From NCBI GenBank assembly GCA_020723805.1, contig DYID01000017.1, positions 1 to 64,000 on the forward strand: a stretch of 64,000 nucleotides of DNA, read 5' to 3'. The notes under the pieces were generated by a model that searched no databases, was not told the DNA's origin, and saw only the letters and a program-made list of their open reading frames with translations. Positions 9,138 to 41,517 of the stretch are shown here, piece after piece. The stretch's first letter is position 1; each line of letters starts with the position of its first letter. Source of the stretch: Anaerolinea sp. (GTDB lineage Bacteria; Chloroflexota; Anaerolineae; Anaerolineales; Villigracilaceae). Both the position numbers and the translations under genes were made by a program.

Positions 9138-10814
9138 TTACTTGAGCAATGTCCGAACTTCTTCAAGAAACTCGTCGTTCAGGAAATCACCCTTGAGCAT
9201 CAGAGACTGGATGCGTCCCTGCAGGCGGCTTTTCTCGTCCACGGTCAATTCCTTGGCGGTGGCAACGATAACGGGAATGTTGGCGGTCTCCGGCTGGCTG
9301 CGCAGCACGTCCATGACGGCGAACCCGTCCATTTCGGGCATCATCAGGTCGAGGATGAGCAGGTCGGGATGTTCTCGGTTCACCAGTTCGATGGCTTCGC
9401 GTCCGTTCACGGCTTCGTAAATTTCGAAATCGCCCTGTGACTGCAAAATGCGGCGGATGAGACGACGCGCCTCGGCTGTGTCGTCTGCCACCACCACGCG
9501 CGAGAAGCGGTTGGGGGTTACATTGTTGAGGGCGGAGAGCAAGCCCTCCTGCGGCGTCTCGGCTTCTGCCTGTTTATGGCGCAGGTCAATGTCGCGAGTC
9601 CAGCCTTCGCCGAACAGATACTGCTCAGCAGGCATGGTGTGACCGGTGCAATTTACCACGACCACATCATCCGGCTTGATGACGCCGGCGCGCACCAGTT
9701 TGAAGAGACCGGCAAAGGCGGTTGCCGAAGCGGGTTCGGCGGAAATGCCCTCCATCTTTGCCAGCACATGCATCGCACGGAACGACTCTTCGTCTGAAAC
9801 GCTTTCGAAGACTCCACCGGTTTCGTTGACCTGTTTGCGCAGCATGACGTAGGTGCGCCCCGGATCGCCGGTTGCCAGGGTCTCGATGCGTGTTTTGGGC
9901 GAGCGCACCGGCTCGGCTTTTTCGAGACCCTTGCGCCAACTCTCCACCATGGGGGCACAGCCGTCCACTTGAATGGGCGCCAAGGCGGGGATGCGGTCTA
10001 TCAGCCCCAGCGCCTTCAGTTCGCGGAATCCCTTATACACCCCGAGCGGACCCAGCCCGCCGCTGATGGATTGAACGTACCAGTCGGGCGTGCGCCATTT
10101 GGGATGTTCCTCTGTGGAGCCTGGAAGCAGCCCGTTTTGCAGGGTCAGTTGTTCGGCGATTTCGAAGGCAAGCGTTTTCATCGCTTCCACGGCTGTGACT
10201 GTGCGCGCGCCCATATCCTGATACAAGCCGCGCTGACGGGCAAACTCCGCCGCCATGATTTTTGCCTCATCATAGGAGCCGGTGATTTTGACCACCTGAC
10301 TCCCGTACAAGGCGATTTCACGCATCTTAACTCCCGGAACGAGGCTGGTGACAAACGCCCAGAGTTTGATCCCCGCCCGAGCCGCATACGCCGAAAGCGA
10401 GATGGCGACATTGCCGGTGGATGCGGCGACCATTTCGGTGATGCCCGCCTCTTTCAGCGCGGCAATGGTCAGCGCCGCCTGCCGGTCTTTGAAGGAGGAG
10501 GTCGGTCCCTGGCGTTCATCCTTGATGTACAGGTTTTTCAGTCCCAGCATCATTCCCAGGTTGACGGCTTTGATGAGCGGCGTGCCGCCCTCGCCAAGCC
10601 GCAGGCTGGGATTGGGGTTGTGGATGGGCAGGAGCTCCTTGTAACGCCACAAGTCGAACTCCCGGTGTTTGAGCTGCGAGGGGAAGGTCTTTGCGACCTC
10701 CGCCATGTCATATTCGGCTTCACGCCACTGACTGGAGCAATTGGGGCATTGCATGGAACTGGGCGTGAAGGGGGCGGCGTGCCCGCAATCGAGACAACGA
10801 ATCACAAATGACAT
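9138..10814 (-). CDS. Threonine-synthase-like PLP enzyme with C-terminal CheY-like REC domain
   Basis: N-terminal Zn-ribbon 'CLDCGH...CPNCS'; PLP Lys 'GPTSSFKDRQAA'; 'STGNVAISLSAYAARAG'; C-terminal 'VVVADDTAEARRLIRRIL...DLLILDLMMPEMDGFAV...PVIVATAKE...LMLKGDF'. One uninterrupted ORF. Confidence 0.9.
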   Translation of the reverse strand: MSFVIRCLDCGHAAPFTPSSMQCPNCSSQWREAEYDMAEVAKTFPSQLKHREFDLWRYKELLPIHNPNPSLRLGEGGTPLIKAVNLGMMLGLKNLYIKDERQGPTSSFKDRQAALTIAALKEAGITEMVAASTGNVAISLSAYAARAGIKLWAFVTSLVPGVKMREIALYGSQVVKITGSYDEAKIMAAEFARQRGLYQDMGARTVTAVEAMKTLAFEIAEQLTLQNGLLPGSTEEHPKWRTPDWYVQSISGGLGPLGVYKGFRELKALGLIDRIPALAPIQVDGCAPMVESWRKGLEKAEPVRSPKTRIETLATGDPGRTYVMLRKQVNETGGVFESVSDEESFRAMHVLAKMEGISAEPASATAFAGLFKLVRAGVIKPDDVVVVNCTGHTMPAEQYLFGEGWTRDIDLRHKQAEAETPQEGLLSALNNVTPNRFSRVVVADDTAEARRLIRRILQSQGDFEIYEAVNGREAIELVNREHPDLLILDLMMPEMDGFAVMDVLRSQPETANIPVIVATAKELTVDEKSRLQGRIQSLMLKGDFLNDEFLEEVRTLLK

Positions 10815-10897
10815 TGAATGTTTTTATCCTTTTCGTCGCTGTGTCCTCCCGCAGACGCCAGCAAAGCAGTTTTTGAAGTGTTGTTTTCCTGAAAGGT

Positions 10898-13800
10898 TCA
10901 GCCGCCGATGCGTTTGAGCGCCTTTTCAATCGTGGTAATCAAATCGTTTTCGTTGAGCGAACCTTTGGCGATGAGCCGCTTGCCGTACTCGGCAAGTTGT
11001 TTATGTTGTTCATTGGTCAGCCCGCCGCCGCTGACAACCAGCACGGGTATGTCGCGCAGCGCCGGCTCTTCCCGCAATTTTTCGAGGATCATGAAGCCGT
11101 CCATTTCCGGCATGAAAATGTCGAGAATGACAGCGTCTGGCGGGTTGGTGTTGAGGATTTCCCAGCCGCGGCGTCCGCCTTCGGCAAGGATGGCTTGATA
11201 TTTGCCGTGTTCGGTCAGAATCTTTTCGATGAGCCGCAGGTCGTTGGGGTCATCGTCAATCACCAGCACGCGGCGGATTTTGCCGTTTTTGTTGAGACGG
11301 TCCAGCGCATGGACGAGGTCTTCCTCGAGGATGGGCTTGACGAGGTAATCTGCCGCGCCGAGGTTGAAGCCCTTGTCGGTTTGTTCGACGATGGAGCAGA
11401 TGATGACGGGAATGTCCCTCGTGGCAGGATCAGATTTGAGGTCGGTCAGAACCGACCACCCGTCCACGTTGGGCATCATGATGTCGAGGGTCACGGCAAA
11501 GGGCTTGATTTCCTTCACTCGTTCCTTCGCCCGGGCGGGTTCGGTCAGCGCGACGACGTGGTATCCCTGCGGGGAGAGATAGCGTTCGTAGAGGCTGATG
11601 ACCTGCGGGTCGTCGTCAATGGCGAGTACGATTTTCCTGTCGGAGGGGATTTCGTCGGTTGGCTGGCGGAAGAGCGGCAGGGTGAACCAGAAGGTGGAGC
11701 CTTTGCCTTCCTCGCTCTCGACGCCGATGCGCCCGCCGTGCAATTGGACGAGGTTGGCGCAGATGGAAAGACCCAAGCCCGAACCGCCCGTTTTGCGGGT
11801 GGCGGAACCATCCACCTGCGAGAACGCCTTGAAGAGTTTCTCCTGTCCTTCCGGGGAGATGCCGGGACCGGTGTCGGTCACTTTGATGAGCGCTTCGAAT
11901 TTTCCGCTGGGCGCTTTATGGACGGATGTTTCGACGGTGATGTACCCTTCATCGGTGAATTTGGCGGCGTTGGAAATCAGATTGAGCAAAATCTGACGCA
12001 CGCGCATGGTGTCGCCGCGGATGGTGGGCATTTCCGGCGGGACCTTTTCGATGAGTTGGATGGGCTTTTCCTTGACAAGTCCCTTGGCGGTCGAGAAGAC
12101 GCTGTGAACCATCTCGGCGAGGTGGACTTCCTCGAAGTTGAGTTCCATCTTGCCGGCTTCGATGCGCGCCAAGTCGAGGATGTCGTTGATTAAGCCGAGC
12201 AGGTGCTGTCCCGAGTTGTAGATGGCAGTCAGGTCCTGCTGCTGCATGTCGGTGATGGGACCATCTATGCCTTTGAGGATGACGCGCGAGAAACCGATGA
12301 TGGAGTTCAACGGCGTGCGCAGTTCATGGCTCATGTTGGCGAGGAACTGGCTCTTGAGTTTGTCCACTTCCTGAAGGTTTTTGATGAGTTCCTGCGATTC
12401 GAGGTAAAGAGTGGCGTTGTTGATGGCAACGGCAACCTGGTCTGCGAGGGATTGAAGCACAGAGATGGCGTCGGGGGTGAATGCGTGCGGCTGGGTGGAT
12501 TGGATGTCAATTACGCCGAGCGTCCTGCCGCTGACCTTGAGCGGAATGGCGGCTTCAGACTGGGTATCGAGCAGCAGAGGGTTGGGCTGGTAAAGGCGGT
12601 TGGTAGCGACATCGTTGATAAGGACGATTTCGCCGCTTTCCACCGCTTTTCCGATCACGGTTTGCGAGCCAACGGCGACCTTGTATCTTTGTGCCTTCAT
12701 CTTTTCGCCGGCGCCGCCCGTTGCTTCGCGCAAAATGACGTGGTAACCATCTTCGTCCATCTGGTAGATGGCGGCGAAGTAGAAGCCCAGGCGGTCGCTG
12801 ACCAGGTTGACGGTCTGGGTGAAGATCGTGTTCAGGTCGAGGGTGGAGGTGACGAGCCGCCCGATTTCGGCGGACGCGGCAAGGTAGGTGTTACGGCGTT
12901 CCAGGGCTTCTCTGGCTTGCAGGCGTTCAAGGGCGGCGGCTGTCTGGGCGGCAATCGCTTCGAGGATGTCGGCGTGGTTGTCGGTAAGGCGGATGGCAGG
13001 GTCATAGGTTTGGATTGCCATGACGCCTCGTACCACACCGCCGCTTTTCAGCGGGACGCCGAGCCAGTCTACGCTGGGGGCGCCGTCAGAGACGATTTCG
13101 CCGCTGGCTTCGAGGTCGGCGAAAATTTCAGGGGTTGTGCGAAGGCGTTTCCCCGAGCGGATGACATAAGAGGTGAGTCCGCGCCCCAATTTGCGCGGCG
13201 CCCAGTCTTCGTCGTATTCGTCTGCGTGGTAGGGGAAGGTGATTAAATGCGTATCGGGGTCGTACAACGCCACAAAGAAATTTTTGGCAGGCAGAATGGG
13301 GTGAATGGATTCATGAACGGTGCGGAACAGTTCCTCCGCCGATTGCGCCATTAACGCGCTTTCGGTGATGTGGGTGATGGCAGCTTGCGTGAGTTCGTTG
13401 ACCTTGCGGTCGGTGATGTCGCGCGCCACCCAGAAGACCTGAGTCTCGTTCAGCCGCGAGACGTTGGCGTCGAACCAGAAGCGGATGCCTTTGATCTCCA
13501 GCGGATATTCGATGCGCACAATCTCATTACTATTGAGTGCATCGTGGATGGCTTTCATGAACGGCTGGTACAGTTCCGGCGGCAACACCTCGCGAATGTT
13601 TTTTCCGACCATTTCGTCGGGCGGGCGCACCAGCAGGGATGGGTTGGTCGGCGCGATGCGGACGTAGGTGCCATCCTTGTCGTACACGATGATGACATCG
13701 TTCATGGAGGCGAACAGCGCGCGCAATTCCGCTTCGGAACGCTGGGTTTCCTGGAACAGGCGGGCGTTTTCGAGTGCAAGCGCAAGCTGGTCGGTCACCT

Positions 13801-41052: not shown

Positions 41053-41440
41053 GGGTTCTCCTTGCCAGGAATTTTTCGATTTCCTTCAGTAGTTCGTCAA
41101 AGTCAATCGGTTTTTGGATGTAGCCGTCACACCCCGCCTGGAGGGTTTTTTCCTTGTCGCCGCGCATGACGTTTGCAGTCAGCGCCAGGATGGGGACGCG
41201 TTCGAAGCCGGGCATGGCGCGAATCTTGGCTGTGAGAGTGTATCCATCCATATCCGGCATGTTGATATCCATCAGAATCAAATCGGGCTTGGCGGTTTCG
41301 AGCAGTTTGAGCGCCTCATGCGCGTCGGTCGCTTCCAGCAAGCCATAATCTTCGGAAAGGAGAATCCGGCGGACAAGCGTGCGGTTATCTGCATTATCTT
41401 CCACGTAAAGTATGGTACCTTTTTCTGCGGTTGGCGTCAT
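41045..41440 (-). CDS. Single-domain CheY-like response regulator
   Basis: 'ILYVEDNADNRTLVRRIL...DLILMDINMPDMDGYTL...PILALTANVM...GYIQKPIDF'; start MTPTAEKG at 41440 preferred. Confidence 0.9.
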   Translation of the reverse strand: MTPTAEKGTILYVEDNADNRTLVRRILLSEDYGLLEATDAHEALKLLETAKPDLILMDINMPDMDGYTLTAKIRAMPGFERVPILALTANVMRGDKEKTLQAGCDGYIQKPIDFDELLKEIEKFLARRTHA

Positions 41441-41517
41441 TTCTGGTTGCCTCCACTGCAATTCTAATACGTCCCATAGGGGGGCACATAACAGTCACCT
41501 TACAGTTGCAAAACAGA

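Follow-up and report, generated by a model that had tools for sequence, protein, structure and literature searches.

A ParA-linked operon of kinase-less GAF receptors, a soluble hybrid histidine kinase and a receiver-bearing threonine-synthase-like protein in Anaerolinea sp.

The window analysed here, a stretch of 64,000 nucleotides from contig DYID01000017.1 of an Anaerolinea sp. (assembly GCA_020723805.1, Chloroflexota), harbours on its minus strand a block of approximately 32 kb in which GAF-domain receptors, a ParA-type ATPase, a hybrid histidine kinase and a threonine-synthase-like enzyme with a receiver are encoded in succession. An initial annotation had proposed that eleven kinase-less GAF receptors, one soluble hybrid kinase and two CheY-like proteins constitute a novel signalling system; all GAF, kinase and receiver open reading frames (ORFs) named therein are present in the block, on one strand and tightly packed, with intergenic distances of -35 to +85 bp from 41440 to 9138. 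In operon order, two stand-alone receivers (REC) are followed by the receptors, ParA, the hybrid kinase, the threonine-synthase-like enzyme with its receiver and an EamA transporter. That these genes constitute one gene system is close to certain, and its main features are as follows.

41045..41440, minus strand: REC1, stand-alone receiver of CheY/DivK type, opening the operon (Pfam Response_reg, 3e-30)
40609..41052, minus strand: REC2, second stand-alone receiver (Pfam Response_reg, 3.6e-21)
38482..40593, minus strand: soluble four-GAF protein without output domain (Pfam)
35860..37800, minus strand: receptor, transmembrane (TM) head-HAMP-GAF-tail (tail module 35863-36384)
34211..35863, minus strand: receptor, MASE11-GAF-tail (tail module 34214-34786)
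32040..34205, minus strand: receptor, multi-TM-GAF-tail (tail module 32043-32654)
30158..32038, minus strand: receptor, sCache-like-HAMP-GAF-tail (tail module 30161-30757)
28744..30129, minus strand: receptor, 2 TM-coiled coil-GAF-tail (tail module 28747-29346; AlphaFold-modelled)
26995..28740, minus strand: receptor, TM-GAF-tail (tail module 26998-27624)
23990..26998, minus strand: receptor, multi-TM-dCache-HAMP-GAF-tail (tail module 23993-24604)
22035..23993, minus strand: receptor, sCache-like-HAMP-GAF-tail (tail module 22038-22670)
17367..20132, minus strand: receptor, multi-TM-dCache-HAMP-GAF-tail (tail module 17370-17999)
14860..17370, minus strand: receptor, dCache-HAMP-GAF-tail (tail module 14863-15459)
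14073..14858, minus strand: ParA/Soj-type ATPase with deviant Walker A KGGVAKT, D40, R188 and K217 (sequence alignment)
14036..14107, minus strand: N-terminus of the kinase, MPKKKPLAKRLDKLFEDIKHEEPS, a candidate partner peptide for ParA (conservation, linkage to ParA)
10898..14107, minus strand: soluble hybrid kinase, N-peptide-linker-half GAF-PAS-GAF-GAF-HisKA-HATPase-REC-REC (Pfam)
9138..10814, minus strand: ThrS-REC, threonine-synthase-like pyridoxal phosphate (PLP) enzyme with C-terminal receiver (PALP 1.6e-62, Response_reg 8e-19)

Receptors, kinase and enzyme

By Pfam, ten of the eleven presumed receptors are membrane proteins that combine GAF with dCache, HAMP, MASE11 or other membrane heads, whereas the eleventh, 38482, is soluble and consists of four GAF domains; as initially annotated, HisKA, HATPase, GGDEF, EAL and HTH were not detected in any of the eleven by Pfam hidden Markov models. 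A tail profile built from the C-terminal approximately 205 residues of the receptors and scored genome-wide assigns 149-250 bits to exactly the ten receptors, 81 bits to 38482 and at most 57 bits to any protein elsewhere in the genome, so that varied sensor heads carry one tail. In the phylum, where 12 candidates per genome were scored, a genome contains at most 11 copies of the tail module, most of them within one cluster. In the tail tree, receptors cluster by orthologue across genera and not by genome, which argues for a receptor set that is old and has been maintained; kin tails can be found with unlike heads, Cache-like in receptor 22035 and MASE11 in L046:2168. The AlphaFold model of receptor 28744 runs from membrane helices and a long coiled coil through GAF, a long helix and a minimal GAF to one more long helix followed by a short one, and contains no kinase fold. 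Degenerate kinase domains, which the initial annotation had regarded as a potential objection, were looked for and not seen in the receptor tails by Pfam, in this model or in an alignment: as the tail aligns to the linkers between one GAF and the next in 38482, it is not a degenerate kinase.

The hybrid kinase starts with an ATG at 14107, overlaps ParA by 35 bp and is 92% identical to the kinase encoded in the nearest named record. Its HELRTP, N-box and G-box residues are invariant, as expected for a hybrid histidine kinase. ParA-less families (L116, L128) possess a dCache-HAMP-(GAF)n-HisKA-HATPase-REC kinase, a fusion which suggests that the GAF receptors signal to the kinase, and in certain relatives the kinase itself is membrane-anchored. 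A Hpt relay partner is not encoded in the cluster, and the sole Hpt found in the genome resides on another contig. The kinase N-terminus gains 39-42 bits with the receptor-tail profile versus 15 bits with the GAF1 profile; a split GAF, with the receptor tail completing the N-terminal half GAF of the kinase, was considered and not retained, the match being suggestive only as unrelated GAF proteins of this genome reach about 57 bits.

ThrS-REC shares with threonine synthase (ThrC) the PLP fold and the SFKDR lysine motif, and its top PDB matches are threonine synthases; it differs by its C-terminal receiver. Its scores lie under the NCBIfam ThrC equivalog cut-offs (251.9 versus 303 bits and 149.9 versus 167.1 bits), and further ThrC-like genes are present in the same genome. 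Within the class, 98 of 301 genomes contain a match at E<1e-150. ThrS-REC is a plausible candidate for an output under phospho-control, by which enzyme activity would be regulated. Other arrangements have been observed in relatives. At L156:5792-7414, a paralogous ParA is followed by a REC-PALP protein with reversed domain order, another receiver-PLP fusion beside ParA, and L112:8138-13225 encodes a 1695-amino-acid protein with an N-terminal region of approximately 1000 residues without Pfam match before PALP-REC-REC.

Conservation and the peptide after ParA

A synteny survey in related Anaerolineae, suggested along with the initial annotation, demonstrated that the cluster order is conserved. 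The kinase has a match at E<=1e-100 in 68 of the 81 genomes searched, and in all of the first 20 loci (genus, family, order) receptors, ParA, kinase and ThrS-REC follow each other in one order, which is kept in further families. Loci with both ends visible read REC, REC, receptors, ParA, kinase and ThrS-REC, with REC1 likewise the first gene in the complete relatives L045, L047, L132, L141 and L193-L195. The number of membrane receptors ranges from a minimum of one (L050) to 9-11 (L038/L193, L044/L194). Throughout Anaerolineales the cluster has been conserved; its core of receptors, kinase and ThrS-REC is found over the class in a form devoid of ParA, and one genome from outside the class likewise encodes receptors, ThrS-REC and a membrane kinase, but no ParA. 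In the ParA-less loci L118:9558-10403, L119:7922-8743 and L124:8558-11144, one or more PF04672 S-adenosyl-methyltransferases are encoded immediately upstream of the kinase gene, in the position held by ParA in Anaerolineales. In the f9 family (L151-L154, L191, L192), genes for FIST-domain or SpoIIAA-like proteins separate the kinase from the ParA-linked GAF protein.

ParA, which had been left unexplained by the initial annotation, is the best-supported new element. K11, K16 and D40, the signature lysine, catalytic lysine and aspartate that go with a deviant Walker A motif, are kept in 17/17, and equally the basic positions R188 (17/17) and K/R217 (17/17) when aligned to Soj; these two correspond to positions required by other ParA proteins for non-specific DNA binding. 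The best PDB matches are ParA/Soj proteins (1e-48 to 1e-35), with FleN at about 1e-6. Two conserved arginines of this kind have been discussed for ParA (PMC7229837).

The product of the gene directly after ParA begins with a short basic-amphipathic peptide. In the kinases this N-terminus, MPKKKPLAKRLDKLFEDI, is conserved with R10 invariant (18/18), and a variable Pro/Ala/Lys-rich linker comes after it. A motif pattern derived from the kinases and then run on all cluster proteins is found in 27/29 genes after ParA versus 0/166 other GAF/kinase genes, the latter including 42 kinase genes of ParA-less loci (0/42); the two exceptions are L034, where the peptide is visible by eye and fails the strict pattern, and L141 without peptide. 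The frozen pattern was subsequently applied to 40 held-out loci with a ParA threshold of 240 bits and recovered in 15 of the 29 loci with ParA of at least 240 bits, none of the 11 loci below this value and 3 of 6253 background ORFs. A relaxed pattern was dropped as the main test, since 19% of background ORFs match.

Loci with the motif decoupled from the kinase carry the most weight for the link between ParA and the peptide. In L148 and the f9 family, the motif resides on a GAF-only protein (directly after ParA in L148), with the separate or downstream kinases being devoid of it; in L132, the gene after ParA encodes a MASE11-GAF receptor with motif alongside a membrane kinase without motif; and in L282, which belongs to another family of the class, a membrane receptor of HAMP-GAF type with a long linker rich in proline carries the motif. 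Judged by sequence, the peptide is tied to ParA rather than to the kinase, and it is likely to be the ParA partner as in the ATPase-activating partners of ParA/MinD. Known activators of ParA/MinD, otherwise diverse proteins, have in common a short N-terminus with positive charge, accompanied in PomX by an Ala/Pro-rich unstructured region (PMC7993993; PMC10241942). One complete genome (G475; L163, L164, L165) has three ParA copies of this family, and after every copy comes a small protein with PAS or kinase domains; the motif stands at the start of two of these proteins, which suggests mobile ParA-sensor pairs.

Interpretation and alternative readings

A description of a ParA-linked multi-receptor kinase system was not found in the literature searched, while several known systems share individual features. 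As in a Che array, many receptors carry a common tail; however, in agreement with the initial annotation, no MCP-signal domain (PF00015) occurs anywhere in the genome, and the cluster, to which the scans for CheA and CheW were confined, encodes neither of these two, so that the system falls outside the Che family, even though it would work in the manner of a ParA-positioned chemosensory array. CheA is described as differing from other histidine kinases in having no sensor domain and depending on dedicated chemoreceptors (PMC10782961). In PpfA-TlpT of Rhodobacter sphaeroides and ParC-ParP of Vibrio, an operon for signalling through many receptors equally includes its own ParA-type ATPase, and a positively charged N-terminus has been reported for TlpT (PMC7993993), but here a HisKA-type hybrid kinase replaces CheA/CheW, and the candidate partner can be a kinase, a GAF-only protein or a receptor in the membrane. 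In ParB/Spo0J, PomX, McdB and TlpT, a charged N-terminal peptide, often with a Pro/Ala-rich linker, is likewise found on unrelated proteins beside an orphan ParA; in contrast, a ParB domain and significant similarity to the ParB motif are lacking here. Multi-sensor hybrid histidine kinases follow the same GAF/PAS-HisKA-HATPase-REC-REC plan, and the ParA-less relatives are conventional membrane kinases, whereas here the sensor heads are split into ten receptors and the kinase is soluble.

We favour, with a probability of roughly 60%, a receptor-kinase assembly that is organised by ParA and in which phosphorylation would directly control an enzyme. Ten membrane receptors with unlike heads and one cytoplasmic C-terminal module would feed a single soluble hybrid histidine kinase, which would phosphorylate the two receivers that it carries itself as well as REC1, REC2 and the receiver domain of the threonine-synthase-like enzyme. 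The Soj-type ParA would bind the short basic peptide that starts the product of the next gene, here the kinase, and thereby position or partition the assembly on the nucleoid. Gene content, synteny, the common receptor tail and the receptor-kinase fusions are established by sequence; the conserved operon, the tail and the fusions lend partial support to the initially proposed organisation of many receptors and one kinase. Control of the kinase by the receptors is likely; together with an ordered array, protein contacts, stimulation of the ParA ATPase, positioning, phosphotransfer and enzyme control, it is what we infer from these data.

Several observations weigh against such an assembly. The kinase is soluble, as initially annotated, yet not sensor-free, as it carries PAS and GAF domains of its own. 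The existence of a ParA-less core implies that ParA is an add-on, and in L141, L164 and L172 the motif is missing although ParA is present. The basic half of the motif is mostly encoded inside the overlap with ParA, which lowers the weight per residue, and the ParA stop codon constrains its D/E/N position. Furthermore, the locus counts are not phylogenetically independent, and the Fisher value carries no correction for phylogeny. ParB homology of the kinase N-terminus was rejected (ParB matrix rank 63/3143, reciprocal rank 912); this N-terminus does not show the LGKGL motif of ParB, and ParB nuclease-like and HTH domains are not found in the kinase by Pfam.

Among the alternatives, ParA might act as a signalling ATPase switch that gates kinase or receptor activity via the product of the next gene and moves no cargo. 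The ParA family includes regulators such as FleN (flagellar) and BcsQ (cellulose biosynthesis) (PMC9178275), and the linkage to a partner peptide fits a switch equally well, but we consider it unlikely, as the ATPase is Soj-like, not FleN-like, and has kept the basic DNA-binding positions. Somewhat less probable still are receptors that are co-transcribed as separate small-molecule sensors or decoys without acting on the kinase; the kinase could indeed sense via its PAS and GAF domains, whereas the one common receptor tail, the receptor-kinase fusions and the alternation of the ParA peptide between kinase, GAF-only protein and receptors speak for a connection. That the N-terminal motif is a by-product of the overlapping frames of the ParA C-terminus and the next start appears highly improbable, even though overlaps of 32-38 bp span its basic half in most loci and the stop codon restricts the D/E/N position: the LFxxI part is located beyond the overlap in almost all loci, the motif is kept at overlaps of 3-19 bp in L158, L165, L168, L180, L186-L189 and L282, the basic-amphipathic start being largely outside such an overlap in L158, L168, L180, L187-L189 and L282, and L141 has a 35 bp overlap yet no motif. 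The least credible explanation, that tandem duplication has held a run of paralogous sensory genes together with no common mechanism, accounts for the receptors being paralogues, but not for their grouping by orthologue across genera in a set old and maintained, nor for a gene order conserved across families. A defence-system reading was discarded, as PADLOC gave marginal matches only.

If the ParA-organised assembly is correct, CheA would have a counterpart outside the Che family in a HisKA kinase that receives input from ten separate receptors and is linked to a ParA of its own, and the cargo range of ParA would be widened to two-component signalling. More tentatively, and on balance doubtful, the operon might represent a second, independently evolved receptor-array design with interchangeable heads, a common GAF-based tail, one HisKA hybrid kinase, ParA docking on kinase, GAF-only protein or receptor, and direct enzyme control via a fused receiver. 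The candidate docking peptide is short and found on three protein types, and with a system so common among Anaerolineales, a heterologous host would allow the role of the peptide to be tested directly.

Further genes and the upstream region

Additional genes are encoded within and next to the operon.

37805..38485, minus strand: DUF6989 membrane protein (Pfam PF22497)
21064..22038, minus strand: NMT1/SsuA-type substrate-binding protein with N-terminal hydrophobic signal, inside the operon
20190..20978, minus strand: putative cyclase/formamidase-family protein with N-terminal hydrophobic signal (PF04199; also in L031)
8064..9005, minus strand: EamA-type transporter, conserved beside ThrS-REC (Pfam)
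2390..7770, plus strand: two-component module of GAF-kinase, REC-GAF-kinase and OmpR-type regulator, convergent to the operon

The DUF6989 gene is not seen in most relatives and is apparently confined to few genomes. The cyclase/formamidase and SsuA/NMT1 genes (20190-22038) interrupt the receptor run; SsuA or other substrate-binding proteins turn up repeatedly in related clusters, and the SsuA/NMT1-type protein is a possible periplasmic co-receptor. At the place of EamA, relatives encode an ORF of 310-340 amino acids, with a Pfam EamA match in L034. The two-component module recurs as a neighbour in relatives and may constitute a transcriptional branch.

Upstream, a tRNA-Gly(CCC) at 41546-41618 on the minus strand precedes REC1 (region 41517-41659), and a perfect (12/12) sigma-70-like promoter at 41659-41631 belongs with this tRNA region. 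A terminator-like hairpin at 41544-41517, before REC1, is the strongest on the minus strand within 22-41.9 kb, in a scan with a total terminator count equal to chance expectation, and expression of the operon could rely on read-through past this hairpin.

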